Assembly (NCBI GenBank): GCA_903914955.1 | Contig: CAIWRB010000250.1 | Location: 16,204-80,203 of the forward strand | Direction of reading: 5' to 3' | From: an uncultured Chloroflexota bacterium | GTDB taxonomy: Bacteria; Chloroflexota; Anaerolineae; Anaerolineales; Villigracilaceae | Length of the DNA: 64,000 nt | In this document: positions 19,631-33,732 of the stretch, piece after piece | Layout: the number at the start of each line of letters is the position of its first letter | How positions within the stretch are numbered: position 1 is the first letter of the stretch | Position numbers and translations under genes: made by a program | Notes under the pieces: generated by a model | What the model was told of the DNA's origin: nothing | What the model saw: the letters and a program-made list of their open reading frames with translations, nothing else | Databases searched by the model: none

Positions 19631-19785
19631 ACAAGAGATACGATGAGTTATTAAGTTTTGGACACCTCCTTTGTCAGGATGTTGCATTTTTTAGGATGAA
19701 CGACTAAAATTATAGGCGAATGATGATATTATGTCAATTGTTATGAAACTGTAAACTCTAACTATTACAAGAGATAGGATGAGTT
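19631..19785. promoter_or_regulatory. Central divergent promoter region bracketed by a 19-bp direct repeat
   Basis: ACAAGAGATACGATGAGTT (19631-19649) and ACAAGAGATAGGATGAGTT (19767-19785), 18/19 identical. Confidence 0.55.
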
Positions 19786-19817
19786 TCCAATATTCGTATT
19801 CCTCCAAGGGAGAATAT

Positions 19818-20285
19818 ATGGACGAGATATTAAAAAAACTACTACTTGAAGAGGATGAACTTCAGTTTACAAAATTCAACGAAGAAATTGCATGGAAAAT
19901 TGGAAGTGAACTTGTAAAACAAGCCATCACTAAAAGCCTCCCCATCACCATTGATATTACCCGCGGCGACCATCAAATTTTTCATGCCAGCCAGCCTGGC
20001 ACATCCGCGGATAATGATGAATGGGTCAAACGAAAAACCCGCCTTACATATAGGTTTGGTCATAGTTCATATTATATTGGACAACTTCTAAAAAGCAAGG
20101 GACAGAACCTAGAAGATGCTTATTTGATATCTGAAAATCATTATGCTCCTCATGGCGGTTGCTTTCCCATTATTGTAAGTGGCACCGGTATGGTAGGCAC
20201 GATCACGGTTTCCGGGCTTGCACAGAAAGAGGATCATCAATTAGTTGTTCAGGCAATTAGGGAATACTTGAGCCATGAAAAATAA
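19818..20285 (+). CDS. UPF0303 / heme-degrading-domain (HbpS-like) protein
   Basis: MDEILKKLLLEEDELQFTKFNEEIAWKIGSELVKQAITKSLPITIDITRG...; RBS AGGGAGAAT upstream of ATG 19818. Confidence 0.8.
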   Translation: MDEILKKLLLEEDELQFTKFNEEIAWKIGSELVKQAITKSLPITIDITRGDHQIFHASQPGTSADNDEWVKRKTRLTYRFGHSSYYIGQLLKSKGQNLEDAYLISENHYAPHGGCFPIIVSGTGMVGTITVSGLAQKEDHQLVVQAIREYLSHEK

Positions 20286-21459
20286 CATGGGATTAAACCC
20301 GGTTATATCAATGTTGGGGCGCAGACTTCGTTTGGCAGTTATTGGCGGAGGCCCCGCATCCTTCATCGGCGCGATGCATCGGCAGGCAGCCAGATTAGAT
20401 GATCGCTATGAGCTGGTCACAGGAATTCTTTCCGCTGACGCTATCCGGGCAAAGAAAGCCGCTTTGGAAATTGGTTTGGCTTCCGATCGTGTTTATGCAA
20501 ACGTTCAGGAAATGCTCAACTCAGAATCTCTACGCAAAGATGGCGCAGATGTAGTTGCCATCATGACGCCCAATGACAGTCATTATGAATATGCGGTCGC
20601 TGCTTTGGAACATGGCTTTGATGTGATTTGTGACAAGCCCATGACAAACACACTTCAGGAAGCTGAAGCCCTGCATAAGAAAGTGCAAGAGTCAGGATTG
20701 ATATTTTGTCTGACCCATAATTACACAGGCTATCCCATGGTTCGTCAGGCAAGAGCCATGGTTGAAGATGGGCAAATTGGAACGATTCGTTTAATTCAGG
20801 TCGAATATGTTCAAGGCGGAAAGGCCGATGAAACTAAATCAATTCCCACTGATGCGATTCCCTGGCGTTACGATTCAATCCGTGGTGGACCGTCTTTGGT
20901 AATGGGAGATATTGGAACTCACGCGCATAATCTCATCCGTTTTATTAGCGGCCTTGAAGTAGCTGAAGTAGCGGCTGAAGTTGGGAACATTGTACCCGGA
21001 CGGCTGATACATGATTTCGCCGGAGCCTTGCTTCGATTTGAAAATGGCGCGCGCGGAAGTTTTTGGGTTACCCAAGCCGCGGCTGGGGTGGAGAATTGCT
21101 TGCGTATCCGAGTCAGCGGCACCAAAGGCAGTCTAGAGTGGATGCAGGAGATCCCGCAGGTTTTAACTTACAAACCGATTCATGGTCCATCTGAAAACCG
21201 TACGCCCAATGGACCGGGTACCCTGCCGTTTGCCGCACGTTCCAGCAGAATTGTCGCCGGTCACCCGGAAGGATTTCATGAAGGATTTGCAAATATTTAT
21301 TCCGATGCGGCCGAAGCGATCAGTGCCCGAAAGTCGGGAAAGAAAGTTAACTTACTGGCACTCCACTTCCCTAACTCGTGGGATGGATTGATGGGTGTAC
21401 GGTTCGTGAATAGTGTAATTGAATCAAGTAAAGCCAATGGCAAATGGACCAAATGTTAA
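20275..21459 (+). CDS. Gfo/Idh/MocA-family oxidoreductase
   Basis: 394 aa; LRLAVIGGGPASFIGAMHRQAA, VICDKPMTNTLQEA, GPSLVMGDIGTHAHNL. Confidence 0.93.
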   Translation: MKNNMGLNPVISMLGRRLRLAVIGGGPASFIGAMHRQAARLDDRYELVTGILSADAIRAKKAALEIGLASDRVYANVQEMLNSESLRKDGADVVAIMTPNDSHYEYAVAALEHGFDVICDKPMTNTLQEAEALHKKVQESGLIFCLTHNYTGYPMVRQARAMVEDGQIGTIRLIQVEYVQGGKADETKSIPTDAIPWRYDSIRGGPSLVMGDIGTHAHNLIRFISGLEVAEVAAEVGNIVPGRLIHDFAGALLRFENGARGSFWVTQAAAGVENCLRIRVSGTKGSLEWMQEIPQVLTYKPIHGPSENRTPNGPGTLPFAARSSRIVAGHPEGFHEGFANIYSDAAEAISARKSGKKVNLLALHFPNSWDGLMGVRFVNSVIESSKANGKWTKC

Positions 21460-21499
21460 CCTTGTATAGTCTAATTGATTATTCAAGACTGGAGATCCT

Positions 21500-22252
21500 A
21501 TGATCAAGCCAGATTCAAAAAAGACCCCTGCTAAAAAAATAAAAAAAGCCACCGTCCGCGGAAAGCTCGTATACCATAATGTCATTGAAAAATTACAGCA
21601 ACGCATCCGTCAGGCAGATTGGCTGCCGGGGGACCGCCTGCCCAGCATCGCGCAATTGGCAAAGGAAATGCACGTAGGCGCAGGATCCATACGTGAAGCC
21701 TTGCGCTCCCTGCAATCGATTGGCCTGATAAAGATCGAGCATGGCAGCGGCGTTTATGTTACTGGCACGCGCCCAGCCACTGAATTGTCCAGCCATTTTG
21801 AGAATCTTGGCGATGGCCTGCTGATTTCGTTGGCTGAAACACGCCGCATAATGGAACCAGAGATTGCATTCCTAGCTGCCGAACGCGGTACCGATCAGGA
21901 GTTGATTGAAATCGAAACACTTGCACGGAAAATGGAAGAGGAGGAAAAACACGGCCATGATTTCGCTGAACTTGATGTTTTGTTTCATCGCAAGATTGCC
22001 TATGCCGCTCGTAACGAGATCTTATTTCAGACCATGGAAGGCGTCAGCGATCTACTTCTGGATAGTCGCCGGGCAATTCTTCTTGACCCAAACTCATTAC
22101 TGCGGGCGTTACGCTATCATGCACTCATCTCAGAAGCACTGATATCAAGAAACCCTCCTCAAGCTCGTTTATTAATGCAAGGTCACATGAATTCCATGTT
22201 AGATGAAGTCCTGGCATCCGAAGCACAAAAACAATCAAAGGAAAAACCATGA
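21500..22252 (+). CDS. GntR/FadR-family transcriptional regulator
   Basis: 250 aa; QADWLPGDRLPSIAQLAKEMHVGAGSIREALRSLQSIGLIKIEHGSGVYV wHTH plus FCD-like C-terminus. Confidence 0.93.
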   Translation: MIKPDSKKTPAKKIKKATVRGKLVYHNVIEKLQQRIRQADWLPGDRLPSIAQLAKEMHVGAGSIREALRSLQSIGLIKIEHGSGVYVTGTRPATELSSHFENLGDGLLISLAETRRIMEPEIAFLAAERGTDQELIEIETLARKMEEEEKHGHDFAELDVLFHRKIAYAARNEILFQTMEGVSDLLLDSRRAILLDPNSLLRALRYHALISEALISRNPPQARLLMQGHMNSMLDEVLASEAQKQSKEKP

Positions 22253-23073
22253 AAATTGCAGTAACAGGCGGAAGTGGTGACATGGGGCGTAACTTGATCC
22301 CATACCTGCTCGAGCACACCCATACAGTTGTAAGTATTGACCGGACATTGCCCACAACACACACGCACGGAGTAAATTTTATAGCCGCTGACGTGCGTGA
22401 TTTCGGCCAGCTTGTCGCAAGCATTCGCGGTTGTGATGCTCTTATTCACCTGGCTGCCATTCGCGCTCCGGTCAACCATCCCGACCCGGTAGTATATGCC
22501 GATAATACAATCAGCAGTTACAACGCGTTGAGCGCGGCTTCGGCACTCGGAATCAAACGGGTATGTTTGGCCTCGTCCATTAATGCAATCGGCGGCGCAT
22601 TCAGCCGCTCGCCTCGTTACGATTACTTCCCTGTAGACGAGCAACATCCCACTTACGCGGAAGATCCATACAGTCTTTCAAAATGGGTGCTGGAGCAACA
22701 AGGCGATGCCTTCGCCCGCCGATTCGAATGGATGACGATTGCCAGTCTGCGCCTCCACTGGTTACTGGATGAACGAACAAAAGCAGTTCAGAACACGGCG
22801 ACAATGGGTGATGTCGCGAGAAAACATCTCTGGGCTTACACATTGCTTGGTGAAGCCAGCCGCGCCTGCTTGCTTTCGCTCACCGCAGACTTTACCGGCC
22901 ACGAAGTTTTCTACATCGTAGCACCGCAATCAGCAGCTGAACAACCGTCAATGGAATTGGCTCGTTATCATTATCCTCAAGCAGAAATTCGAGAGGATTT
23001 TTCAAACCACACTGGTTTCTTTAATTGTTCCAAAGCCGAGCGTCTGCTTGGTTGGAAGCATCAGGAGAATTAG
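22249..23073 (+). CDS. NAD-dependent epimerase, uronate dehydrogenase-like (second copy)
   Basis: 274 aa; [55 protein letters not shown]; 4-bp overlap with GntR gene. Confidence 0.87.
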   Translation: MKIAVTGGSGDMGRNLIPYLLEHTHTVVSIDRTLPTTHTHGVNFIAADVRDFGQLVASIRGCDALIHLAAIRAPVNHPDPVVYADNTISSYNALSAASALGIKRVCLASSINAIGGAFSRSPRYDYFPVDEQHPTYAEDPYSLSKWVLEQQGDAFARRFEWMTIASLRLHWLLDERTKAVQNTATMGDVARKHLWAYTLLGEASRACLLSLTADFTGHEVFYIVAPQSAAEQPSMELARYHYPQAEIREDFSNHTGFFNCSKAERLLGWKHQEN

Positions 23074-23076
23074 ATT

Positions 23077-24264
23077 ATGAAAATTACAGATATTAAACCT
23101 TTGCCTGTCTGGGTGGGAAGCCGCAATCAACTTGTTGTCAAAATTGAAACTGATGAAGGAATTTATGGCCTCGGCGAATCAGGCCTAAGCGGACGTGAGT
23201 TGGCTGTCATCGGCGCGCTTAAACATTTCCGCGAATTTCTAATCGGCAAGGACCCAATGCAAATTGGGCGAATCTGGCAGGAACTTTATCGCGGACAGTA
23301 TTTCGAAGGCGGACGCGTCCTGCTTGCCGCGCAAAGCGCCATTGATATTGCGCTCTACGATATCGCAGGCAAGGCCCTCAATGTTCCTGTGTACCAACTT
23401 CTGGGCGGCAAACAGCGGGATGTGATCCCCTGCTTCGCAACAGCAACAGGCGCGGGCGCGGCTCTGATCGACGATGTTAAACTTCTGATGAAACATGGCT
23501 GGAACGTCATTCGCACAGGACCGATGATGCTTGACCATCAAGGCGGCTTCACCGGAGAATCTGATATTTTTGAACCGCGCGAGAGCATCCCTATGACCGC
23601 CAAGTGGTTGACAAAAGTACGCGAGGAGTGCGGTAGTGAGGTTGTGCTGGGCATTGATTATCATCACCGTCTTAGCATCGCCGAGACAGCATCATTTTGT
23701 CAGCGCATGCCGATGGGCACACTTGATTTTATTGAAGAACCAATTCGTGATGAAAGTCCGGAAGCATATGAAGCCCTGCGAAAGTTGACTGATATACCCT
23801 TTGCGGTGGGTGAAGAATTTGCCAGTAAATGGCAGTTTCTGCCTTTCATCGAAAAGCACCTCACCGATTTTGCGCGCGTGGATCTTTGCAATGTTGGCGG
23901 TTTTACCGAAGCCATGAAAGTAGCAGGCTGGGCTGAAGCGCACTATATTGATCTGATGCCGCACAATCCGCTTGGCCCGATCTGTACCGCAGCGACAATT
24001 CAAATGGCTGCGGCAGTACCCAACTTCGCCTGGCTTGAAGTTCGTGTAACTCAGACTGAGAATTTATATTATGGGCAATCAGGCGTGAACGATGCAGAAG
24101 CGCTATTCCCGATTCAGCCGCAGCTCGTCGGGAATTCATTCCCCGTACCCACTGCGCCGGGCTTGGGCATTGAAATAGACGAAAAATTAGCAGAATCACA
24201 ATCGTGGAAATTTTGGGAAGCCCCGCATTGGAAACGTCGCGATGGTTCCGTGACGAATTGGTAA
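23077..24264 (+). CDS. Enolase-superfamily dehydratase, galactonate dehydratase (DgoD)-like
   Basis: 395 aa; MKITDIKPLPVWVGSRNQLVVKIETDEGIYGLGESGLSGRELAV; GIDYHHRLS, IEEPIRDESPEAY, AVGEEFASKW, HNPLGPICTAA. Confidence 0.88.
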   Translation: MKITDIKPLPVWVGSRNQLVVKIETDEGIYGLGESGLSGRELAVIGALKHFREFLIGKDPMQIGRIWQELYRGQYFEGGRVLLAAQSAIDIALYDIAGKALNVPVYQLLGGKQRDVIPCFATATGAGAALIDDVKLLMKHGWNVIRTGPMMLDHQGGFTGESDIFEPRESIPMTAKWLTKVREECGSEVVLGIDYHHRLSIAETASFCQRMPMGTLDFIEEPIRDESPEAYEALRKLTDIPFAVGEEFASKWQFLPFIEKHLTDFARVDLCNVGGFTEAMKVAGWAEAHYIDLMPHNPLGPICTAATIQMAAAVPNFAWLEVRVTQTENLYYGQSGVNDAEALFPIQPQLVGNSFPVPTAPGLGIEIDEKLAESQSWKFWEAPHWKRRDGSVTNW

Positions 24265-24274
24265 AAGGGAATTT

Positions 24275-25342
24275 ATGACAAAACAAAATCAATCTCTTTT
24301 CTTTGCGAGTGGTTACGCTTCCGCCGAACAGCCCGGTATTCAATCTTTTCTGTTTGACGAAGTCACGGGGAAATTAACAGCGCAGGGTTCATTGATGGGC
24401 ATCCTCAACCCTTCCTTTATTATTGTTCACCCAAACAGTCGTTGGCTATATGCGGTTAGTGAAACAGGAAAGGACAGTCATGGCGCTTTCGGTGAAGTTT
24501 GGGCATTTCAGTTTGATCTTGAGCCTTTTAGCATCCAGCCGATCAATCATCGATCCAGTCGCGGCGATTGGCCCTGTCATCTTCGACTCGATGCGACCAG
24601 TCAGTGGTTACTCGCCACCAATTATGGTACTGGCAACGCAGGTCTTTATCCACTTCAACCAGATGGCTCACTCGGTGAGATGACAGATTTTGTTCAGCAT
24701 CATGGCGAAGGACCAAACCCTGCCCGACAGGAAGGTCCACATGCGCACTCATCTATTTTCACACCGGATAATCGTTTTGCCATCATCGCCGATCTGGGAA
24801 TTGATCAACTGATAATTTATAAACTTGACTCGACTATAGGCAAACTACTTCCGCACTCACCTGTAAACACACGACCTGGCGCGGGACCACGACATCTTAC
24901 CTTTCATTCAAACGGCAAGTGGATGTATGCGGCGAATGAACTCGATAACACGGTAACACTATACGATTACGACACAAAAAAAGGTATATTGACCGAAAGA
25001 CAAAGCCTCCCCACTATCCCGTCAGAGGCTCCAGAAAGTACGATTGCTGATATTCATATTTCCGCAAATGGCAAAAGATTATATGTTTCCAATCGCGGAC
25101 ATGACAGCATTACAGTTTACGATATCGGCACCGATGGAGGTTTGAAAATGGTTTCCATCCAATCATCCGGCGGAAATTGTCCGCGGAACTTTGCACTCGC
25201 GCCCGGCGGAAAATTCCTATTGGCGGCAAATCAAAACAGCAATGAAGTTTGTGCCCTGCCAATTCTTGAAGGCACGCAAGCACTCGGTGCACCAGTTGAT
25301 CGCGCGATTGTGACCGGTGCCTCGTGCATTCAATTTGTATAA
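24275..25342 (+). CDS. Lactonase (6-phosphogluconolactonase Pgl-type beta-propeller)
   Basis: 355 aa; repeated beta-propeller motifs, GEGPNPARQEGPHAHS, GPRHLTFHSNGKWMYAANELDNTV. Confidence 0.92.
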   Translation: MTKQNQSLFFASGYASAEQPGIQSFLFDEVTGKLTAQGSLMGILNPSFIIVHPNSRWLYAVSETGKDSHGAFGEVWAFQFDLEPFSIQPINHRSSRGDWPCHLRLDATSQWLLATNYGTGNAGLYPLQPDGSLGEMTDFVQHHGEGPNPARQEGPHAHSSIFTPDNRFAIIADLGIDQLIIYKLDSTIGKLLPHSPVNTRPGAGPRHLTFHSNGKWMYAANELDNTVTLYDYDTKKGILTERQSLPTIPSEAPESTIADIHISANGKRLYVSNRGHDSITVYDIGTDGGLKMVSIQSSGGNCPRNFALAPGGKFLLAANQNSNEVCALPILEGTQALGAPVDRAIVTGASCIQFV

Positions 25343-25346
25343 ACCA

Positions 25347-26342
25347 ATGAACGAATCAACCCGCACACCTCGTTTTGATTTTGTCAGTCTCGGCGAATCC
25401 ATGCTGCGTTTGAGCGTGCCCACTGGCCACAGACTGGATGATACTCGCGTACTTGATATGGAACTTGCCGGGGCAGAAAGCAATGTCAGTGTGGCGTTGG
25501 CACGTTTGGGTCGGCGCACTGGTTGGGTCAGCCGAATGCCTGATCATGCATTGGCTCAGGCGATTCTGCGCGCATTACGTTCCGATGGTGTGGATGTCTC
25601 CGCCGTGAATTGTGTCCCAGACGAACGGCTCGGCACATACTTCATTGAATACGCCACGCCGCCTCGTTCCACTCAAGTCATCTATGACCGCGCAGACTCT
25701 GCGGCATCACACATGACAACGGCCGATATTGATTGGGATTATCTGCTGGATACACGCGTGTTGCATCTTACTGGCATCACGGCTGCGTTGAGCGATAATT
25801 GTTACGATCTGCTTGGGGAGGCAATTCAACGTGCTCACGCCGCGGGGGTAAGGGTCAGTTTTGATGTGAATTTTCGCGCCAAGTTATGGTCAGCCGCAAC
25901 CGCTGGCGAAAAACTTCGCCCCCTGATCGCTCAGGCAGATATACTTTTGTGCAAAGGCGCAGATGCCGTATCGCTCTTTGGTTGTCAGGGAGAGCCTCGT
26001 AAATTAATGACCCAGTTGAAAGCACTCACCCATGCGACTGCCGTCTTCTGTACTTTTGGCGAAGAAGGCGCGGCAGTATTGAGCGGCGATGATTTTGTGA
26101 CTCAGCCCGCACTCCCAGTGCAAATTGTAGATCGCATCGGTAGCGGCGATGCCTTCGCGGCAGGCGTGCTCGATGGCTGTTTATCGAGAGATGACTACAG
26201 CATATCTACATTACGTGAAGGCTTGCAGCGCGGCGTAGCTTTGGCCGCCATTGCATTATCACAATTTGGCGACCGCGTTCTATCATCTCGCGCTGAATTA
26301 AACGCGGCATTAGGCACAGAACGGCTTGATATTTCACGTTAG
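25347..26342 (+). CDS. kdgK: 2-keto-3-deoxygluconate kinase (PfkB family)
   Basis: FVSLGESMLRLSVPTGHRL, ELAGAESNVSVALARLGRRTGWVSRM, DRIGSGDAFAAGVL PfkB signature. Confidence 0.9.
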   Translation: MNESTRTPRFDFVSLGESMLRLSVPTGHRLDDTRVLDMELAGAESNVSVALARLGRRTGWVSRMPDHALAQAILRALRSDGVDVSAVNCVPDERLGTYFIEYATPPRSTQVIYDRADSAASHMTTADIDWDYLLDTRVLHLTGITAALSDNCYDLLGEAIQRAHAAGVRVSFDVNFRAKLWSAATAGEKLRPLIAQADILLCKGADAVSLFGCQGEPRKLMTQLKALTHATAVFCTFGEEGAAVLSGDDFVTQPALPVQIVDRIGSGDAFAAGVLDGCLSRDDYSISTLREGLQRGVALAAIALSQFGDRVLSSRAELNAALGTERLDISR

Positions 26343-26353
26343 GAGAAAAAGGC

Positions 26354-26986
26354 ATGTCTGCCATTCAACAAATCCTTGAAAAAAAAGTGGTCGCAGTGGT
26401 GCGGCTGGATAACTACAACCGTGCAGTGGATGTAGCCCGGGCACTCGCAGCAGGCGGCGTCAACGTATTGGAATTTACACTAACGGGTCAAGGTGCACTG
26501 GAAGCCGTCTCTGCGACTCGACAAGCATTGGGCGGCGCTGTTTGTGTGGGCGTGGGAACTGTCCTGTCGTCCGAGCAGGCCGAAGCGGCGATTGATGCAG
26601 GCGCAGAATTTCTGGTCACACCCGCCCTGCGTCGACAAGTCATAGCAACCTGCGTCAAACGTCAGACATTGGTATTGTGCGGCGGGCTGACCCCCACCGA
26701 ATTATTGGAAGCACATGAAGCGGGAGCGGAATTGCTCAAAGTATTTCCCGCGCAATTGGGCGGACCAAAATTTATCAAGGATGTGCTTGCGCCCATGCCC
26801 TTCCTGAAGCTGGTACCAACGGGCGGAGTGAGTCCCGAGAATGCGCGAGACTATCTTGCCGCTGGTGCGGTGGCAGTTGGCATCGGCGGAAACTTGGTAT
26901 CCAACAAACTTGTGGCGGCTGAAGCATTCGATCAAATTACAGCAACAGCGCAGGCATGCATGGATGCGATCCATAAGCAGAGTTAA
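26354..26986 (+). CDS. eda: KDPG/KHG aldolase
   Basis: 210 aa; GGVNVLEFTLTG, VGVGTVLSSEQAEAAIDAGAEFLVTPAL, LKVFPAQLGGPKFIKDVLAPMPFLKLVPTGGVSPEN. Confidence 0.93.
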   Translation: MSAIQQILEKKVVAVVRLDNYNRAVDVARALAAGGVNVLEFTLTGQGALEAVSATRQALGGAVCVGVGTVLSSEQAEAAIDAGAEFLVTPALRRQVIATCVKRQTLVLCGGLTPTELLEAHEAGAELLKVFPAQLGGPKFIKDVLAPMPFLKLVPTGGVSPENARDYLAAGAVAVGIGGNLVSNKLVAAEAFDQITATAQACMDAIHKQS

Positions 26987-27057
26987 TTGTAAAATGTAAG
27001 CGAAGAAATTTTATTTGTAGCGTGTTGTTAAAAATCAAACTCCAACGGAGGCTTCAA

Positions 27058-28224
27058 ATGAATTCTCGTGAACGTGTTTTAACCGCATTGAATCACAAGG
27101 AACCCGACCGCGTTCCTTATGATATGGGAGGTACAGTGGTAACCGGCATTCAGGCCAAAGCGTATGCACGCCTGCGTAAATATCTGGGACTGCCTGATAA
27201 GGAAGTCGTAATTATTGACATCCTGCAACAGCTCGCCCAGGTGGATGATGATGTGATGGAGCGGTTGGGTGTAGACCTTCGCAATATCTCACCCCGCTCC
27301 ACTGCCAGTTTCAAAATTGAACTCAAGTTGACTCCCGACGGCAGATACAGCTACTTCCATGATGAATATCAGATTGGCTGGCGCATGCCAACGGATGGCG
27401 GCATGTACTACGACATGTTCGAACATCCACTCAGCGGAGAGGTCACACCAGGTATGGTGGATCAATATACTTTGCCAGATCCACTCGACCCATCCCGTTT
27501 TGATGGTCTGCGCGCGGCAGCGACCAAAGTGCTCGAAGAAGAAAAACGCGCACTCGTGGTCGGCAACATCTCCGCTGGAATTTTCGAGTTGTATTTATGG
27601 ACACGCGGATTCAAAGACGGCTATACCGATTGGGCGGGAAATCCTGAGCTTGCAAAAAAGATCCTGCGCAAATATACAGACCTGCAACTTGCCTATTGGG
27701 AAAGAATGTTTGAGGTAATGGAAGGCATTCCTATTGATGTAGTTCAAATGGCTGATGATCTCGCCGGGCAAAACAGCGTACTTATCTCCCCCATCTCATA
27801 CCGCAAACTACTCAAGCCGTTCCACAAGGAAATGTTTGATTACATCCACTCAAAATCGGATGCGAAGATATTCTTCCATTCCTGCGGAGCCGTCCGCAAA
27901 CTTATTCCTGACCTGATCGAAGTGGGCGTGGATATTTTGAACCCGGTACAGGTTAACGCTGCAAACATGGACTCTGCGGAACTCAAGCGCGAGTTTGGCA
28001 AGGATATATGTTTCTGGGGCGGCGGCGTGGATACTCAAAGTGCATTTGATGAATCGCACACGCCGGATGAAGTGCGCGCAGATGTAAGGAAGCGCGTCGA
28101 AGACCTCATGCCGGGCGGCGGATTTGTATTCAACACGGTCCATAATATTCAGGGGAATGTTCCCCCGGAAAATATCATGGCGATGTGGGAAACACTGCAA
28201 GAGTATGGCGTTTACAACAAGTAA
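27058..28224 (+). CDS. Uroporphyrinogen decarboxylase-family (MtaA/MtbA-like) methyltransferase
   Basis: MNSRERVLTALNHKEPDRVPYDMGGTVVTGIQ; KIFFHSCGAVRKLIPDLIEVGVDILNPVQVNAANMD; next to a corrinoid protein gene. Confidence 0.88.
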   Translation: MNSRERVLTALNHKEPDRVPYDMGGTVVTGIQAKAYARLRKYLGLPDKEVVIIDILQQLAQVDDDVMERLGVDLRNISPRSTASFKIELKLTPDGRYSYFHDEYQIGWRMPTDGGMYYDMFEHPLSGEVTPGMVDQYTLPDPLDPSRFDGLRAAATKVLEEEKRALVVGNISAGIFELYLWTRGFKDGYTDWAGNPELAKKILRKYTDLQLAYWERMFEVMEGIPIDVVQMADDLAGQNSVLISPISYRKLLKPFHKEMFDYIHSKSDAKIFFHSCGAVRKLIPDLIEVGVDILNPVQVNAANMDSAELKREFGKDICFWGGGVDTQSAFDESHTPDEVRADVRKRVEDLMPGGGFVFNTVHNIQGNVPPENIMAMWETLQEYGVYNK

Positions 28225-28235
28225 AAGGAGAAACT

Positions 28236-28889
28236 ATGGACCCCAAGAAAATTTTCGATGCCGTGGTTAATGGCGATGTTCAGGAAACTCAAGCAGGTGT
28301 AAACGAAGCCCTCGCCGCAAATGTGCCCGCAGAACAAATACTCAACGAAGCCTTGATCCCGGCAATGACGGAAGTAGGCTGTCTGTTCGAAGCGCAGGAG
28401 TTTTATGTGCCTGAGATGCTGGTCTCAGCCAAGGCGATGCAATCTGGTTTGAATACGCTCAAACCGTTACTGGCAAGTCAGGCAGATCTATCGAGCAAAA
28501 AGACCAACCCCAAGGCAGTGCTCGGCACGGTGAAGGGAGACCTGCACGATATCGGCAAGGATCTGGTGGTCATGATGCTTGAAGGCGCTGGCTTTCAAGT
28601 CACCGATCTGGGCGTGGATGTTCCTCCCGAAAAATTCATTGAAGCTGTCAATGATGGTGCGCAGGTGATCGGTATGTCTGCCATGCTGACGACAACCATG
28701 CTAAATATGAAAGTAACTATCGAGGCGCTAAAAGATGCCGGCGTGCGCGACAAGGTCAAGGTGATCGTTGGCGGCGCTCCGTTGACTCAGTCTTTTGCCG
28801 ATAGCATCGGCGCAGATGGATTTGCAAAAGATGCCAGTTCCGCTGTGCGTAAAGCCAAAGAACTAATCACCACACAGGAGGCTACATGA
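28236..28889 (+). CDS. Corrinoid (B12-binding) protein, MtaC/MttC-like
   Basis: MDPKKIFDAVVNGDVQETQAGVNEALAANVPAEQILNEALIPAM; GTVKGDLHDIGKDLVVMMLEGAGF (DxHxxG cobalamin motif); IVGGAPLTQSFADSIGADGFAKDA. Confidence 0.95.
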   Translation: MDPKKIFDAVVNGDVQETQAGVNEALAANVPAEQILNEALIPAMTEVGCLFEAQEFYVPEMLVSAKAMQSGLNTLKPLLASQADLSSKKTNPKAVLGTVKGDLHDIGKDLVVMMLEGAGFQVTDLGVDVPPEKFIEAVNDGAQVIGMSAMLTTTMLNMKVTIEALKDAGVRDKVKVIVGGAPLTQSFADSIGADGFAKDASSAVRKAKELITTQEAT

Positions 28890-29866
28890 AAAAACTTCGT
28901 TGGGGTTTACTGAGCACCGCACGTATTAACAAGGTATTGCTGCCGCCGCTTCGAGCATCAGAGCGAAATGAGTTGACTGCTGTCGCCAGCCGCGATACGG
29001 TACGGGCACAGGCATACGCCAAAGAAAGGAATATTCCACGAGTATTTGGCAGTTATGAAGCCATGCTTGCTGACCCCGATATCGATGTCATTTACAATCC
29101 ACTGCCCAACAGCCTGCATGCGGAGTGGACGATCAAGGCGGCGCAGGCAGGCAAACATATTCTTTGCGAAAAGCCGCTGGCAAATACAGTTGAGGATGTG
29201 GATGCGATGACCGAGGCCGCGAAGAAAGCAGGTGTGGTTCTCATGGAAGCGTTCATGTATCGCCATCATCCGCAAACACTTAAAGTGAAGGAACTGGTTG
29301 ATAGCGGAGCGATTGGAAAACTTCAAGTCATTCACGGGGCGTTCACCTTCAAACTCGGAAATGAAGATGATGTGCGTCTCAATGCATCACTTGGAGGCGG
29401 CGGCATCTGGGATGTGGGATGTTACCCGATCAGCTACGCGCGCTTGATCGTCGGCGCTGAAGCTGTCGAAGTATTTGGCTGGCAGGTTACAGGTCAGGCA
29501 AGCGGTGTAGATGAAATGTTCGCCGGCCAGATGCGATTCCCAAATAACGTCTACGCCCAATTCGACAGCGGCCTTCGCACTCCTCGCCGATCTTACATCG
29601 AGTTGGCGGGTGACGAAGGCACGCTCTCGATCCCGCAACCATTCCAACCTTATCAAAACGAGAAGATCATGCTGACGCGTGGCGACAAAGAAGAAGTCAT
29701 TTCAATCTCCGGGGAAGACCTTTATCGCGGCGAAGTCGAGAATATGGCTGATGCAATTTTGGATGGCAAATCCACACGCATGAGTCTCGCTGACAGCCGA
29801 AATAATGTAGCGACCATCATGGCGTTACTGCGTTCTGCCAGGGAAGGCAAGCCAGTTACCGTGTAA
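28886..29866 (+). CDS. Gfo/Idh/MocA-family oxidoreductase (second copy)
   Basis: 326 aa; KKLRWGLLSTARINKVLLPPLRASER, HILCEKPLANTVEDVDAM, AFMYRHHPQT. Confidence 0.93.
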   Translation: MKKLRWGLLSTARINKVLLPPLRASERNELTAVASRDTVRAQAYAKERNIPRVFGSYEAMLADPDIDVIYNPLPNSLHAEWTIKAAQAGKHILCEKPLANTVEDVDAMTEAAKKAGVVLMEAFMYRHHPQTLKVKELVDSGAIGKLQVIHGAFTFKLGNEDDVRLNASLGGGGIWDVGCYPISYARLIVGAEAVEVFGWQVTGQASGVDEMFAGQMRFPNNVYAQFDSGLRTPRRSYIELAGDEGTLSIPQPFQPYQNEKIMLTRGDKEEVISISGEDLYRGEVENMADAILDGKSTRMSLADSRNNVATIMALLRSAREGKPVTV

Positions 29867-29883
29867 ATTTGTAGGCATATGTT

Positions 29884-31005
29884 TTGGGAAGGGACATCAT
29901 GAACAAACAAATAAAAAAATCGAGTTTATCCCGCCGTGATTTTTTACGCGTTGGCGGAATTGTGGCTGCGAGTCTGCTTACGAGCAGATGTCAATCTCTT
30001 AAGCTTACTCCGACGGAGAGCATGCCGCTTAGCATATCAAAAGCCTCGGTGGCGATCGGTAAAGTGCGGACCTATGACCGTGCCGCCATCGAAAGTCAGA
30101 TACAAACACTGATAGATCAACTAGGCGGATTGGGAGATGTGGTTAAACCTGGGAACAGCGTTGCCATCAAACCCAATCTGACTGGGGGAGTATCTTCAGG
30201 ATTGCTCAACGGCATTCCCGCTGAAGAGAGTTACGTCACTCACCCAGAGGTGGTGCGCGCATTGGTCAAGCAAGTACAAGCGGCAGGCGCGAAAGAAGTA
30301 TTCATCGTTGAGGCGGTCTATGAATGGGAATCCTATTCCATGTGGGGCTATGAGGAGATTGCCAAAGACCTTGGTGTGACATTGATCGACTTGAACGGCA
30401 GCAAGCCTTATTCCGATTTCGCGGAGATATCCGTCGGAGCCAACAGCCACATCTACAAGACTTTTACAGTGAACCAAATTTTGAAAGATGTAGATGTCTT
30501 CATGTCGGTCTCCAAGATGAAGAACCACGATCTTGCGGGCATAACACATACCATGAAAAATCTGTACGGTCTTGTGCCCTACCGCCTCTATCGTTTGAAC
30601 GACCAGGATAAGTACCGCTCCGAATTCCACGGCACTGGAACCGAAACCCGGGCGCGTCTGCCGCGCATCATTGTTGATATCAACCGTGCGCGCCCCATCA
30701 ACTTCAGTTTGATCGATGGGATCAAGACCACGCAAGGCGGCGAGGGTCCGTGGATCAAATCCCTCGCCCCGATCGAACCGGGAATTTTGATCGCTGGAAA
30801 GAATCCAGTCGCAACGGACTCTGTCGCTACTGCTGTCATGGGACATGACCCAACAGGTGATTATCCCAACTCCCCTTTTGTGCGCGCCGACAATCACATC
30901 AAGCTTGCCGCGCAAGCCGGGCTGGGAACCAATCGATTGGAAGAAATTGAAGTGCTTGGATCGCAGATCAGTGAAGTTAAAACCCAATTCGTTCCAGCGC
31001 CCTAA
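29884..31005 (+). CDS. Tat-exported DUF362-family protein
   Basis: 373 aa; N-terminal SLSRRDFLRVGGIVAASLLTSRCQ (twin-arginine plus possible lipobox); SVSKMKNHDLAGITHTMKNLYGLVP. Confidence 0.87.
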   Translation: MGRDIMNKQIKKSSLSRRDFLRVGGIVAASLLTSRCQSLKLTPTESMPLSISKASVAIGKVRTYDRAAIESQIQTLIDQLGGLGDVVKPGNSVAIKPNLTGGVSSGLLNGIPAEESYVTHPEVVRALVKQVQAAGAKEVFIVEAVYEWESYSMWGYEEIAKDLGVTLIDLNGSKPYSDFAEISVGANSHIYKTFTVNQILKDVDVFMSVSKMKNHDLAGITHTMKNLYGLVPYRLYRLNDQDKYRSEFHGTGTETRARLPRIIVDINRARPINFSLIDGIKTTQGGEGPWIKSLAPIEPGILIAGKNPVATDSVATAVMGHDPTGDYPNSPFVRADNHIKLAAQAGLGTNRLEEIEVLGSQISEVKTQFVPAP

Positions 31006-31055
31006 TTTTTGGGGATCAGAGCATATTGGGAATATCCTTTCTTTATGGAGATCCT

Positions 31056-32309
31056 ATGAGCAACCCATTCACTCTTGGCGTTAATTACTGGCCGCGCCGA
31101 AAAGCCATGTATTGGTGGAGCAATTTTGATGCGGGCGAAGTGCGCGAAGAATTCAATATCATTAAAGAGATTGGCTTGAATGTCGTCCGCTTATTTTTAT
31201 TATGGGATGATTTCCAACCCGAGCCTGATTCGGTGAATAAGGACGCGCTTACCAATTTGCTAAAGGTCGCGGACATCGCTGCCGAAAACGGACTCGGTCT
31301 CGACGTCACCTTCTTCACCGGTCACATGAGCGGACCGAATTGGAGTCCGCGCTGGTTGCTGGGCGGGGATTTGCCTCCGCAGGCGCACAGACATTGGCTG
31401 CATGATGTTGTCAGCAATGGAAAAATAACCGACAAAGGTTACCGCAACATGTTCCACGATGAGATAGCGTTAAAGGCAACCCGTTTGCTTTTGAAAACAG
31501 TTATCAGCGCGCTCAAAGATCATCCCTCCATTTGGATGTGGAATCTCGGCAACGAACCCGATCTATTTGCATGGCCCAATACTTCTGAGGATGGCGCTGC
31601 TTGGGTAAAGGAAATGGTCGGGTTGATCAAATACATTGACCCGCATCATCCCGTCACCATAGGCTTGCACGGCGACGGTTTGCATCGCGACAACGGTCTG
31701 CGAATTGACAAAGTGTACGCGCACACAGATGTGGCGGTGATGCATTCCTATCCCATGTACACAACCTGGGCGCGTAAACCGCTTGACCCTGACTTCGTCC
31801 CGTTCACCTGCGCCCTGACATCTGCGCTGTGCGGCAAGCCCGTGCTGATGGAAGAGTTCGGCGGCTGTACCGCGCTTCCGAATGAAGCCACCTACACCAT
31901 GAAATGGATCGAAACGAACGGACGTGAACATGAACAATTCATGGCCAGCGAAGAAGACTTCGCAGAATTCTTGAGCCTGACGATTCCCAAATTACAAGAC
32001 AGCGGCGCGACAGGCGCGATGCTCTGGTGCTTTGCCGATTACGTTCCCGAATTATGGAATTCACCTCCATGCCAGAACGCCCGTCATGAACGCTTCTTTG
32101 GGATGGTGCGGCCAGACGGCTCGCTCAAACCTCATGCAAAAGTAATTCAGGAATTTGCGAAGACAAAACCGCAGGTGAAACCAATCCCTGATTACGCAAA
32201 GATGATCGTCAATCCCGATGAGTTTTATAAAGAACCGCTGAGACATCTGGTGGATTTGTATAAAAACTATCTGACAGGTGTTGAAAAAGAAGAAGCATTT
32301 GCCAAATAA
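31056..32309 (+). CDS. Glycoside hydrolase, clan GH-A (GH5-like)
   Basis: MSNPFTLGVNYWPRRKAMYWWSNFDAGEVREEFNIIKEIGLNVVRLFLLWDDFQ; WMWNLGNEPDLF (acid/base NEP), VLMEEFGG (nucleophile). Confidence 0.85.
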   Translation: MSNPFTLGVNYWPRRKAMYWWSNFDAGEVREEFNIIKEIGLNVVRLFLLWDDFQPEPDSVNKDALTNLLKVADIAAENGLGLDVTFFTGHMSGPNWSPRWLLGGDLPPQAHRHWLHDVVSNGKITDKGYRNMFHDEIALKATRLLLKTVISALKDHPSIWMWNLGNEPDLFAWPNTSEDGAAWVKEMVGLIKYIDPHHPVTIGLHGDGLHRDNGLRIDKVYAHTDVAVMHSYPMYTTWARKPLDPDFVPFTCALTSALCGKPVLMEEFGGCTALPNEATYTMKWIETNGREHEQFMASEEDFAEFLSLTIPKLQDSGATGAMLWCFADYVPELWNSPPCQNARHERFFGMVRPDGSLKPHAKVIQEFAKTKPQVKPIPDYAKMIVNPDEFYKEPLRHLVDLYKNYLTGVEKEEAFAK

Positions 32310-32367
32310 ATCTTGAATTAATAAATTTATACATCATAAACCAATCAACACAAAAGGATAAAAAACA

Positions 32368-33732
32368 ATGCCAAAAAACACCTATAACTTCCCGAAAGAG
32401 TTTGTCTGGGGTGCTGCAACCGCGTCGTATCAGATCGAAGGTGCGTGGAATGAACACGGCAAAGGCGAATCCATTTGGGATCACTTCTCGCACACGCCGG
32501 GTAAAGTCAACAACAATGACAATGGCGATACAGCCAACGATCATTATCACCTGTGGCGTAAAGATATCAAGTTGATGAAACAACTTGGTCTTAAAGCCTA
32601 TCGTTTCTCAATATCCTGGCCGCGCATTCTGCCAAAAGGACGTGGCAAGATAAATCAAAAAGGAATTAACTTCTACAGCAAACTTGTCGATGGTTTGCTG
32701 GCAGCGGGCATTACCCCTTATGCCACCCTTTATCACTGGGATCTCCCGCAAGCCTTACAGGATGAAGGCGGCTGGGAAGTACGCTCAACAGCCGAGGCTT
32801 TTAAGGAATACACCGAAGCCATCACACAGGCGCTCGGTGACCGTGTAAAGAATTGGATCACCATCAACGAACCTGCCTGCGTCGCATGGGTGTCAAACGA
32901 TATGGGTGAACATGCTCCTGGCTATCAAGATATGAAGCGCGCCATCCCCGTTAGTTTCCACGTGATGCTCGCGCACGGTTGGGCTGTACCGATCATCCGC
33001 AAGAACAGTCCAAATTCGGAAGTGGGGATTGTGCTCAATGTAGGATGGAGAATGGCCGCTTCAAACTCGACTTTTGATCTGGATGCCGTCCGAGCAGGAG
33101 ACGGCAAGTGGACGCGCTGGTTTGCCGATCCGCTCTACGGACGCGGCTATCCCGCCGATGTGATCACGGATTTTGAGCAGGCCGGTTTCCTGCCTAACGG
33201 AATGAACTTCGTAAAAGATGGCGATCTCATCGCCATTGCAGCGCCGACTAATTTCCTTGGTATCAATTATTACAACCGCGAAGTCGTCCGTTCAAATGCC
33301 GCGGGTAATGATCCGCAAACCGTTTTTCCCAAACCAAAGTCCCCCGAAAACTGGACCGAAATGAATTGGGAAAATTACCCCGATGGCTTGGCGGGTGTGC
33401 TTGGCATGATGTACTTTAATTATCAGCCGCTCAAAATGTATGTCACCGAGAACGGAGCGAGTTATTCCACCGCCCCCGATGAAAATGGCGAAGTACATGA
33501 TACGCTTCGCTTAGATTATTATAAAACTCACCTCGCTGCGGTTCACCGCATCATGCAGGCGGGAGTGCCCATGGCTGGTTACTTCGCCTGGTCGCTCATG
33601 GATAATTTCGAATGGGCAAAAGGGTACGACCAACGCTTCGGCATCGTGTGGGTGAATTTTGAAACCCAGGAGCGCATCCTGAAAGACAGCGCCAAATGGT
33701 ATAAAACGGCTATCAGAAGAAATGGATTTTAA
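32368..33732 (+). CDS. GH1 beta-glucosidase
   Basis: 454 aa; FVWGAATASYQIEGAWNEHGKGESIWDHF, WITINEPACV, MYVTENGASY, DNFEWAKGYDQRFGIVWVNF. Confidence 0.96.
   Translation: MPKNTYNFPKEFVWGAATASYQIEGAWNEHGKGESIWDHFSHTPGKVNNNDNGDTANDHYHLWRKDIKLMKQLGLKAYRFSISWPRILPKGRGKINQKGINFYSKLVDGLLAAGITPYATLYHWDLPQALQDEGGWEVRSTAEAFKEYTEAITQALGDRVKNWITINEPACVAWVSNDMGEHAPGYQDMKRAIPVSFHVMLAHGWAVPIIRKNSPNSEVGIVLNVGWRMAASNSTFDLDAVRAGDGKWTRWFADPLYGRGYPADVITDFEQAGFLPNGMNFVKDGDLIAIAAPTNFLGINYYNREVVRSNAAGNDPQTVFPKPKSPENWTEMNWENYPDGLAGVLGMMYFNYQPLKMYVTENGASYSTAPDENGEVHDTLRLDYYKTHLAAVHRIMQAGVPMAGYFAWSLMDNFEWAKGYDQRFGIVWVNFETQERILKDSAKWYKTAIRRNGF

Follow-up and report, generated by a model that had tools for sequence, protein, structure and literature searches.

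A UroD-superfamily protein and a corrinoid protein encoded in a sugar catabolic operon of an uncultured Chloroflexota bacterium: a candidate O-demethylation module for methylated sugars

Gene content and organization of the locus

The window, that is, the whole 64,000-nucleotide stretch of contig CAIWRB010000250.1 of an uncultured Chloroflexota bacterium analyzed here, carries a same-strand run of genes (19779-33732) that opens with a gene for an HbpS-like protein and continues, in this order, with:

20275..21459, + strand, second Gfo/Idh/MocA dehydrogenase of the operon, conserved in locus L050
21500..22252, + strand, GntR/FCD regulator, probable regulator of the operon
22249..23073, + strand, SDR, possible aldose/uronate 1-dehydrogenase (weak assignment)
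23077..24264, + strand, enolase-superfamily sugar-acid dehydratase, galactonate/ManD-like
24275..25342, + strand, beta-propeller lactonase
25317..26342, + strand, KDG/KDGal kinase (NF041332, 264 bits, under the cut-off of 440)
26354..26986, + strand, KDPG aldolase, Eda (TIGR01182, 187 bits, above the curated cut-off of 156)
27058..28224, + strand, UroD-superfamily methyltransferase, proposed MT1 (388 aa; Pfam URO-D, 5e-24; HSCG at 274-277, HNIQ at 362-365)
28236..28889, + strand, corrinoid carrier protein (217 aa; helical and B12-binding domains, DLHDIGK; PF02607, PF02310)
28886..29866, + strand, Gfo/Idh/MocA sugar dehydrogenase (nearest: aldose-aldose oxidoreductase, GFOR, Gfo6 xylose 1-dehydrogenase family)
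29884..31005, + strand, DUF362 protein, conserved in the operon
31026..32309, + strand, GH-A glycosidase, GH5-like (nearest PDB entries: mannanase, GH5_18)
32368..33732, + strand, GH1 beta-glycosidase

An earlier sequence-only reading of the window had described the UroD gene (with HSCG) and the corrinoid gene (with DLHDIGK) as embedded in a uronate/aldonate catabolic cluster. Both genes are present, and the order of their upstream and downstream neighbors was borne out, except that the “uronate dehydrogenase” of that reading, the SDR, gave only a weak match to this family (42 bits, amid many epimerases). The dehydratase lies near the galactonate and ManD dehydratases and under both equivalog cut-offs. 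The encoded pathway is of the Entner-Doudoroff type, and either an aldose or an aldonate could enter it.

The likely start of the UroD gene is the ATG at 27058, with GGAGG just 5' of it; a longer GTG start at 27022 was rejected because the homologs start at ATG 27058. The UroD and corrinoid genes are separated by 11 bases, each is preceded by a ribosome-binding site, and the stop of the corrinoid gene overlaps the start of the next Gfo/Idh gene by 4 bases; the spacing of the pair is operonic. Two related genomes share this gene order, including the pair: G042 (UroD 100% identical, other proteins 86-99%) and G007 (68-91% identical, on a contig that begins inside the lactonase gene). The refuting condition set by the earlier reading, a pair not conserved with sugar-acid genes in relatives, was thus not borne out. 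The lactonase and KDG kinase (24275-26342 in the window, 7562-9635 in L050) are only 86-87% identical to those of G042, compared with 100% for UroD and 95-99% for most neighbors, which suggests recombination or an assembly mosaic.

The UroD-superfamily protein

Comparison with curated profiles places the protein in the UroD superfamily, under the cut-off of every named subfamily compared: the MtaA/CmuA family (TIGR01463, 52.7 bits vs the curated cut-off of 235.4), MtaA (40 bits vs 400), MtbA (22 bits vs 600), and HemE uroporphyrinogen decarboxylase (TIGR01464, 20.4 bits vs 302.95) were each rejected as assignments. The AlphaFold2 model (mean pLDDT 95.6) has as its top PDB fold match MtaA of Methanosarcina mazei, a corrinoid methyltransferase (4ay8), above HemE; sugar isomerases also appear among the Foldseek matches, with low scores. 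In a profile alignment, H274 and C276 of HSCG match the H-x-C of MtaA, and the third cysteine of MtaA, in PGCG, stands opposite a glycine. In MtaA, H-x-C and the PGCG cysteine provide the zinc ligands. Across an alignment of 42 homologs, H274, C276, and H362 are invariant. The C-terminal pattern of the protein aligns weakly with CdmB (E 0.01).

The corrinoid protein and partners elsewhere in the genome

The corrinoid protein contains both domains of methyltransferase-type carriers (Pfam B12-binding_2, 2e-21; B12-binding, 5e-26) and matches PDB 1y80, MttC, and MtmC. No MttB-superfamily MT1 was matched among the neighbor proteins tested, and neither the third component, a methyltetrahydrofolate methyltransferase (MT2), nor an activase was found in the window. 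That partners might lie elsewhere, as had been proposed, is corroborated by other contigs of the same genome, which carry two RACo/RamA-type activase genes (C334 and C410), an MT2 (C300) that is 62% identical to the MT2 in the orthologous cluster L092, and, on C334, an apparent CODH/ACS cluster consisting of CooS, AcsB, AcsD, AcsC, RACo, AcsE-like, and MTHFR-type genes, assigned by eye from the translations rather than by profile search. G042 and G007 each encode an MT2 that is 63-64% identical to that of L092. RACo is present in 41 of the 43 genomes with homologs of the window UroD protein vs 115 of 151 relatives at large.

Genes of the MttB family are located on further contigs of the genome, for example, C202, C300, C366, and C395. 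Other corrinoid proteins of the genome are encoded together with MttB-family genes on C395 (L016, 6196-9447) and C300 (L017, 6811-12234), and the one on C395 also adjoins an aldolase and a kinase that by eye resemble four-carbon sugar-acid enzymes. On C410 (L013, 11489-15567), genes for RACo, a homocysteine-methyltransferase-like protein, and an MtaA-like UroD protein are consecutive, an arrangement resembling methyl-sulfur type clusters.

These MttB proteins, together with the top fold match to MtaA, which is an MT2, and the retained HxCG of the MtaA site, are compatible with the UroD protein being an MT2-type enzyme that moves the methyl group from methyl-corrinoid to a thiol or another acceptor, with the MT1 encoded elsewhere. 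We consider this quite unlikely, given the glycine in place of the third MtaA cysteine, the score on the MtaA/CmuA profile far below the cut-off, and the separate MT2 already present in orthologous clusters. The earlier reading had recognized neither an MT1 of the MtaB/MtbB type nor a RamA-like activase in the window; the absence of the activase holds, but the lack of an MT1 is doubtful. By analogy with the MtvB/MtoB/OdmB/CdmB systems, the UroD protein is more likely itself the MT1 and does not have to be taken for an MtaA-like MT2.

Related loci

From GTDB genomes, 80 loci were picked by UroD similarity alone. In Aggregatilineales and related Chloroflexota, UroD and the corrinoid protein are fused: in L095, L096, and L097 a single ORF of ~650 aa encodes both, and likewise in L098, the sequence of which contains ambiguous bases. 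A joint alignment of the fused and separate corrinoid proteins was discarded, the corrinoid-only rows being seemingly misaligned. The order of genes in L096 is sugar-binding protein, RbsA-type ATPase, DUF4380, creatininase family, UroD-corrinoid fusion, xylose isomerase, MT2, and MTHFR; L091 and L092 encode UroD, the corrinoid protein, and MT2 as separate genes. In L103 (Desulfosporosinus) and in L089 (UroD 84% identical), the pair is found with a xylose isomerase, a CUT2 importer, and a xylulokinase. The xylose isomerase (xylA), xylulokinase (xylB), glucuronate isomerase, and MT2 assignments are above curated cut-offs; tagaturonate epimerase was assigned by Pfam.

In the DNA around each locus, a corrinoid gene lies near 17 of 54 homologs of the two main clades, a low count that is partly due to short contigs; L093 and L113 lack a corrinoid gene despite wide flanks. 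The many homologs without an adjacent corrinoid gene, as well as the low-scoring sugar isomerases among the fold matches, would fit a UroD protein that is a lyase or isomerase of sugar acids, the corrinoid protein serving something else. This is quite improbable considering the natural fusions of the two proteins, the near-universal activase in homolog-bearing genomes, and the MT2 and MTHFR genes in the clusters. A system that operates in reverse, methylating sugars, or that supplies methyl-THF or methionine synthesis is a very remote prospect: such corrinoid methyl-transfer reactions are reversible in vitro, but the neighbors are catabolic importers, isomerases, kinases, and aldolases, and no glycosyltransferases were seen in the operon.

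Several further features of the related loci were observed. Clusters of the closest UroD homologs (L089, 11818-14091; L092, 10819-12240; L093, 11254-12681) encode a fatty-acid-desaturase-type protein, fused in L089 to Rieske and NAD-binding domains, that might act on the same substrate in an alternative, oxygen-dependent way. Among relatives with UroD <42% identity, including L060-L082, UroD-family proteins of a large solo clade have HTDG/HTIM in place of HSCG/HNIQ, and in the DNA examined around these loci a corrinoid gene is never adjacent. Uronate-isomerase clusters of the other clade (L124, L129, L141, L142, L148) encode one or two extra UroD-family proteins of about 350 aa and, in some cases, NagA/NagB-like proteins, and may therefore act on a uronate that is larger or contains an amino sugar. 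The genome of the acetogen Moorella stamsii (G174) has 26 UroD-family matches, more than the known methyl substrates would seem to require. In a plasmid search, the best matches were only ~31% identical or less.

Association with sugar genes

Sugar markers were detected with HMMs for XylA, UxaC, UxaE, KDG kinase, and KDPG aldolase, which were made from UroD-locus sequences and could be biased toward such loci, though the families are broad; 17 of the 80 unselected UroD loci had such markers and the remaining 63 had none. Three of six further relatives of at least 43% identity had them as well. No markers were found at MttB loci (0/40 in relatives and 0/40 in homolog-bearing genomes; 17/80 UroD vs 0/80 MttB loci, Fisher p ~6e-6) or at 20 random loci, although the contrast with MttB may be partly due to MttB loci being unusually sugar-poor. 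A matched count gave 9/20 UroD vs 0/40 MttB loci (p ~1e-5), but the genomes in it were partly picked for context, so that 17/80 is the fair figure. UroD relatives of <42% identity, mostly solo proteins with HxDG and without a corrinoid gene and for this reason used as a contrast set, had markers at 3 of 31 loci, against which the excess at 17/80 is not significant (p 0.12); within this set, an 18-member HxDG clade had neither a corrinoid gene nor a sugar marker at any locus (0/18).

To our knowledge, all characterized UroD-superfamily MT1 proteins act on ordinary donors, namely, methanol, methylamine, aryl methyl ethers, or methyl halides. A corrinoid MT1 for such a donor, with the sugar operon being coincidental, would agree with this precedent, including the published CdmB and MtvB/MtoB systems, and with the 63 of 80 loci that lack sugar markers. 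It is nonetheless unlikely, because the marker genes recur in two UroD clades and several phyla, mostly close to the UroD gene and co-oriented with it, and none of the 80 MttB loci has them.

Phylogeny and predicted substrates

In a tree of 121 UroD rows (quick search, SH-aLRT support only), the window protein belongs to a 23-row clade (support 94) in which all six of the xylose-isomerase loci fall, together with ten CUT2 loci and xylulokinase, and a separate 31-row clade (support 100) holds all twelve uronate-isomerase loci. With kinship uncorrected, xylA is found at 6/23 loci of the window's clade vs 0/31 of the uronate clade (Fisher p 0.004), and uronate isomerases at 12/31 loci of the uronate clade vs 0/23 of the window's (Fisher p 0.0005), which suggests that substrate classes follow the UroD tree. 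The core of the original proposal, O-demethylation of methylated sugars, gains support from the fusions, the MT2-bearing clusters, and the xylose and uronate operons, but its example substrate, 4-O-methylglucuronate, is not the most plausible one for the window copy, since the window UroD falls in the xylose-isomerase/CUT2 clade and the uronate isomerases in another. We favor an O-methylated aldose, either a pentose or a hexose, for the window copy.

Proposed pathway and significance

The genes, their order and conservation, and the presence of all partners are seen directly in the genome sequences. That the pair performs corrinoid methyl transfer of some kind is highly probable, and this is supported by the fusions, the MT2 in orthologous clusters, the partners in the window's genome, and the activase in 41/43 genomes. 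The methyl donor is, with moderate confidence, a sugar or sugar acid. The explanation that we prefer, and hold to be reasonably probable, is that the pair is a corrinoid-dependent O-demethylase for O-methylated sugars with partners supplied in trans.

We infer every catalytic step, like the substrate, as follows. The O-methylated sugar or sugar acid would bind in the UroD barrel, and Co(I) of the corrinoid protein would accept the methyl ether carbon through the UroD protein acting as MT1, leaving the free sugar. An MT2 in trans, either the C300 protein or the AcsE-like one encoded in the ACS cluster, would pass the methyl group to tetrahydrofolate, methyl-THF would enter the CODH/ACS pathway, and a RACo-type protein would re-reduce the corrinoid when oxidized. 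The free sugar would then follow the operon's own route of oxidation, dehydration, and cleavage, served by its dehydrogenase, lactonase, dehydratase, KDG kinase, and KDPG aldolase.

More broadly, Chloroflexota, Bacillota, and other groups may share a widespread anaerobic pathway for methylated sugars based on the HxCG/HNIQ UroD subfamily, a generalization to which we give slightly less than an even chance. The subfamily would comprise at least two clades, one for O-methylated pentoses/aldoses (xylA/xylB/CUT2 context, the window's clade) and one for O-methylated uronates (uxaC/uxaE context), with the methyl groups channeled via corrinoid into the Wood-Ljungdahl pathway. Sugar methyl ethers include 4-O-methylglucuronate in xylan, methylated xylose in pectin, and algal methyl sugars, and are expected to block the normal sugar enzymes. 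If true, the corrinoid route would account for the use of methylated sugars by anaerobes, supply acetogenic metabolism with C1 units from sugar methyl groups in sediments, digesters, and guts, and assign a function to a large number of UroD-family proteins that lack annotation.

Comparison with known systems

The fusion protein CmuA of aerobic chloromethane degraders joins a UroD domain to a corrinoid domain, as in L095-L098; unlike CmuA, the window proteins are separate, occur in a sugar context, and score under the TIGR01463 cut-off. With the methylcobamide:CoM methyltransferases MtaA/MtbA (PDB 4ay7), the window protein shares the fold, as the top match, and HxCG, but these act as MT2 with CoM and their third cysteine is unmatched in the window protein. 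The type 1 mlp clusters, which have three MtaA-like proteins and an activase and have been proposed to function in methyl-sulfur or methyl-selenide metabolism (PMC10418091), likewise combine a bacterial UroD-superfamily methyltransferase with a corrinoid protein, but the window has one UroD protein and no activase.

The three-component aryl O-demethylases MtvABC/MtoABC of Moorella and Methermicoccus, which act on aromatic methyl ethers (PMC8630106), have the same kinds of parts: a UroD-superfamily MT1, an adjacent small corrinoid protein with DxHxxG, a pterin-binding MT2, and a RACo-type activase. They differ from the window in that the context here is sugar catabolism and that the MT2 and activase are in trans; a same-cluster MT2 is missing from the window and present in the orthologous L091, L092, and L096. 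CdmBCA, the chloromethane system of Acetobacterium (PMC13222342), also consists of a UroD-fold MT1 and a corrinoid protein, but its substrate is a haloalkane and its identity to the window protein is very low.

Among sugars, 6-O-methyl-D-galactose is demethylated oxidatively in aerobes by a P450, with release of formaldehyde (PMC10033563). There, too, the methyl ether is taken off ahead of catabolism, but by an oxygen-using monooxygenase of unrelated proteins; it is the only described sugar demethylation that we found in the open-licence literature. Our search of the same literature turned up no corrinoid enzyme for sugar O-demethylation. Corrinoid UroD-type demethylases are already known for aromatic ethers and chloromethane; a sugar substrate would be new among the systems found.
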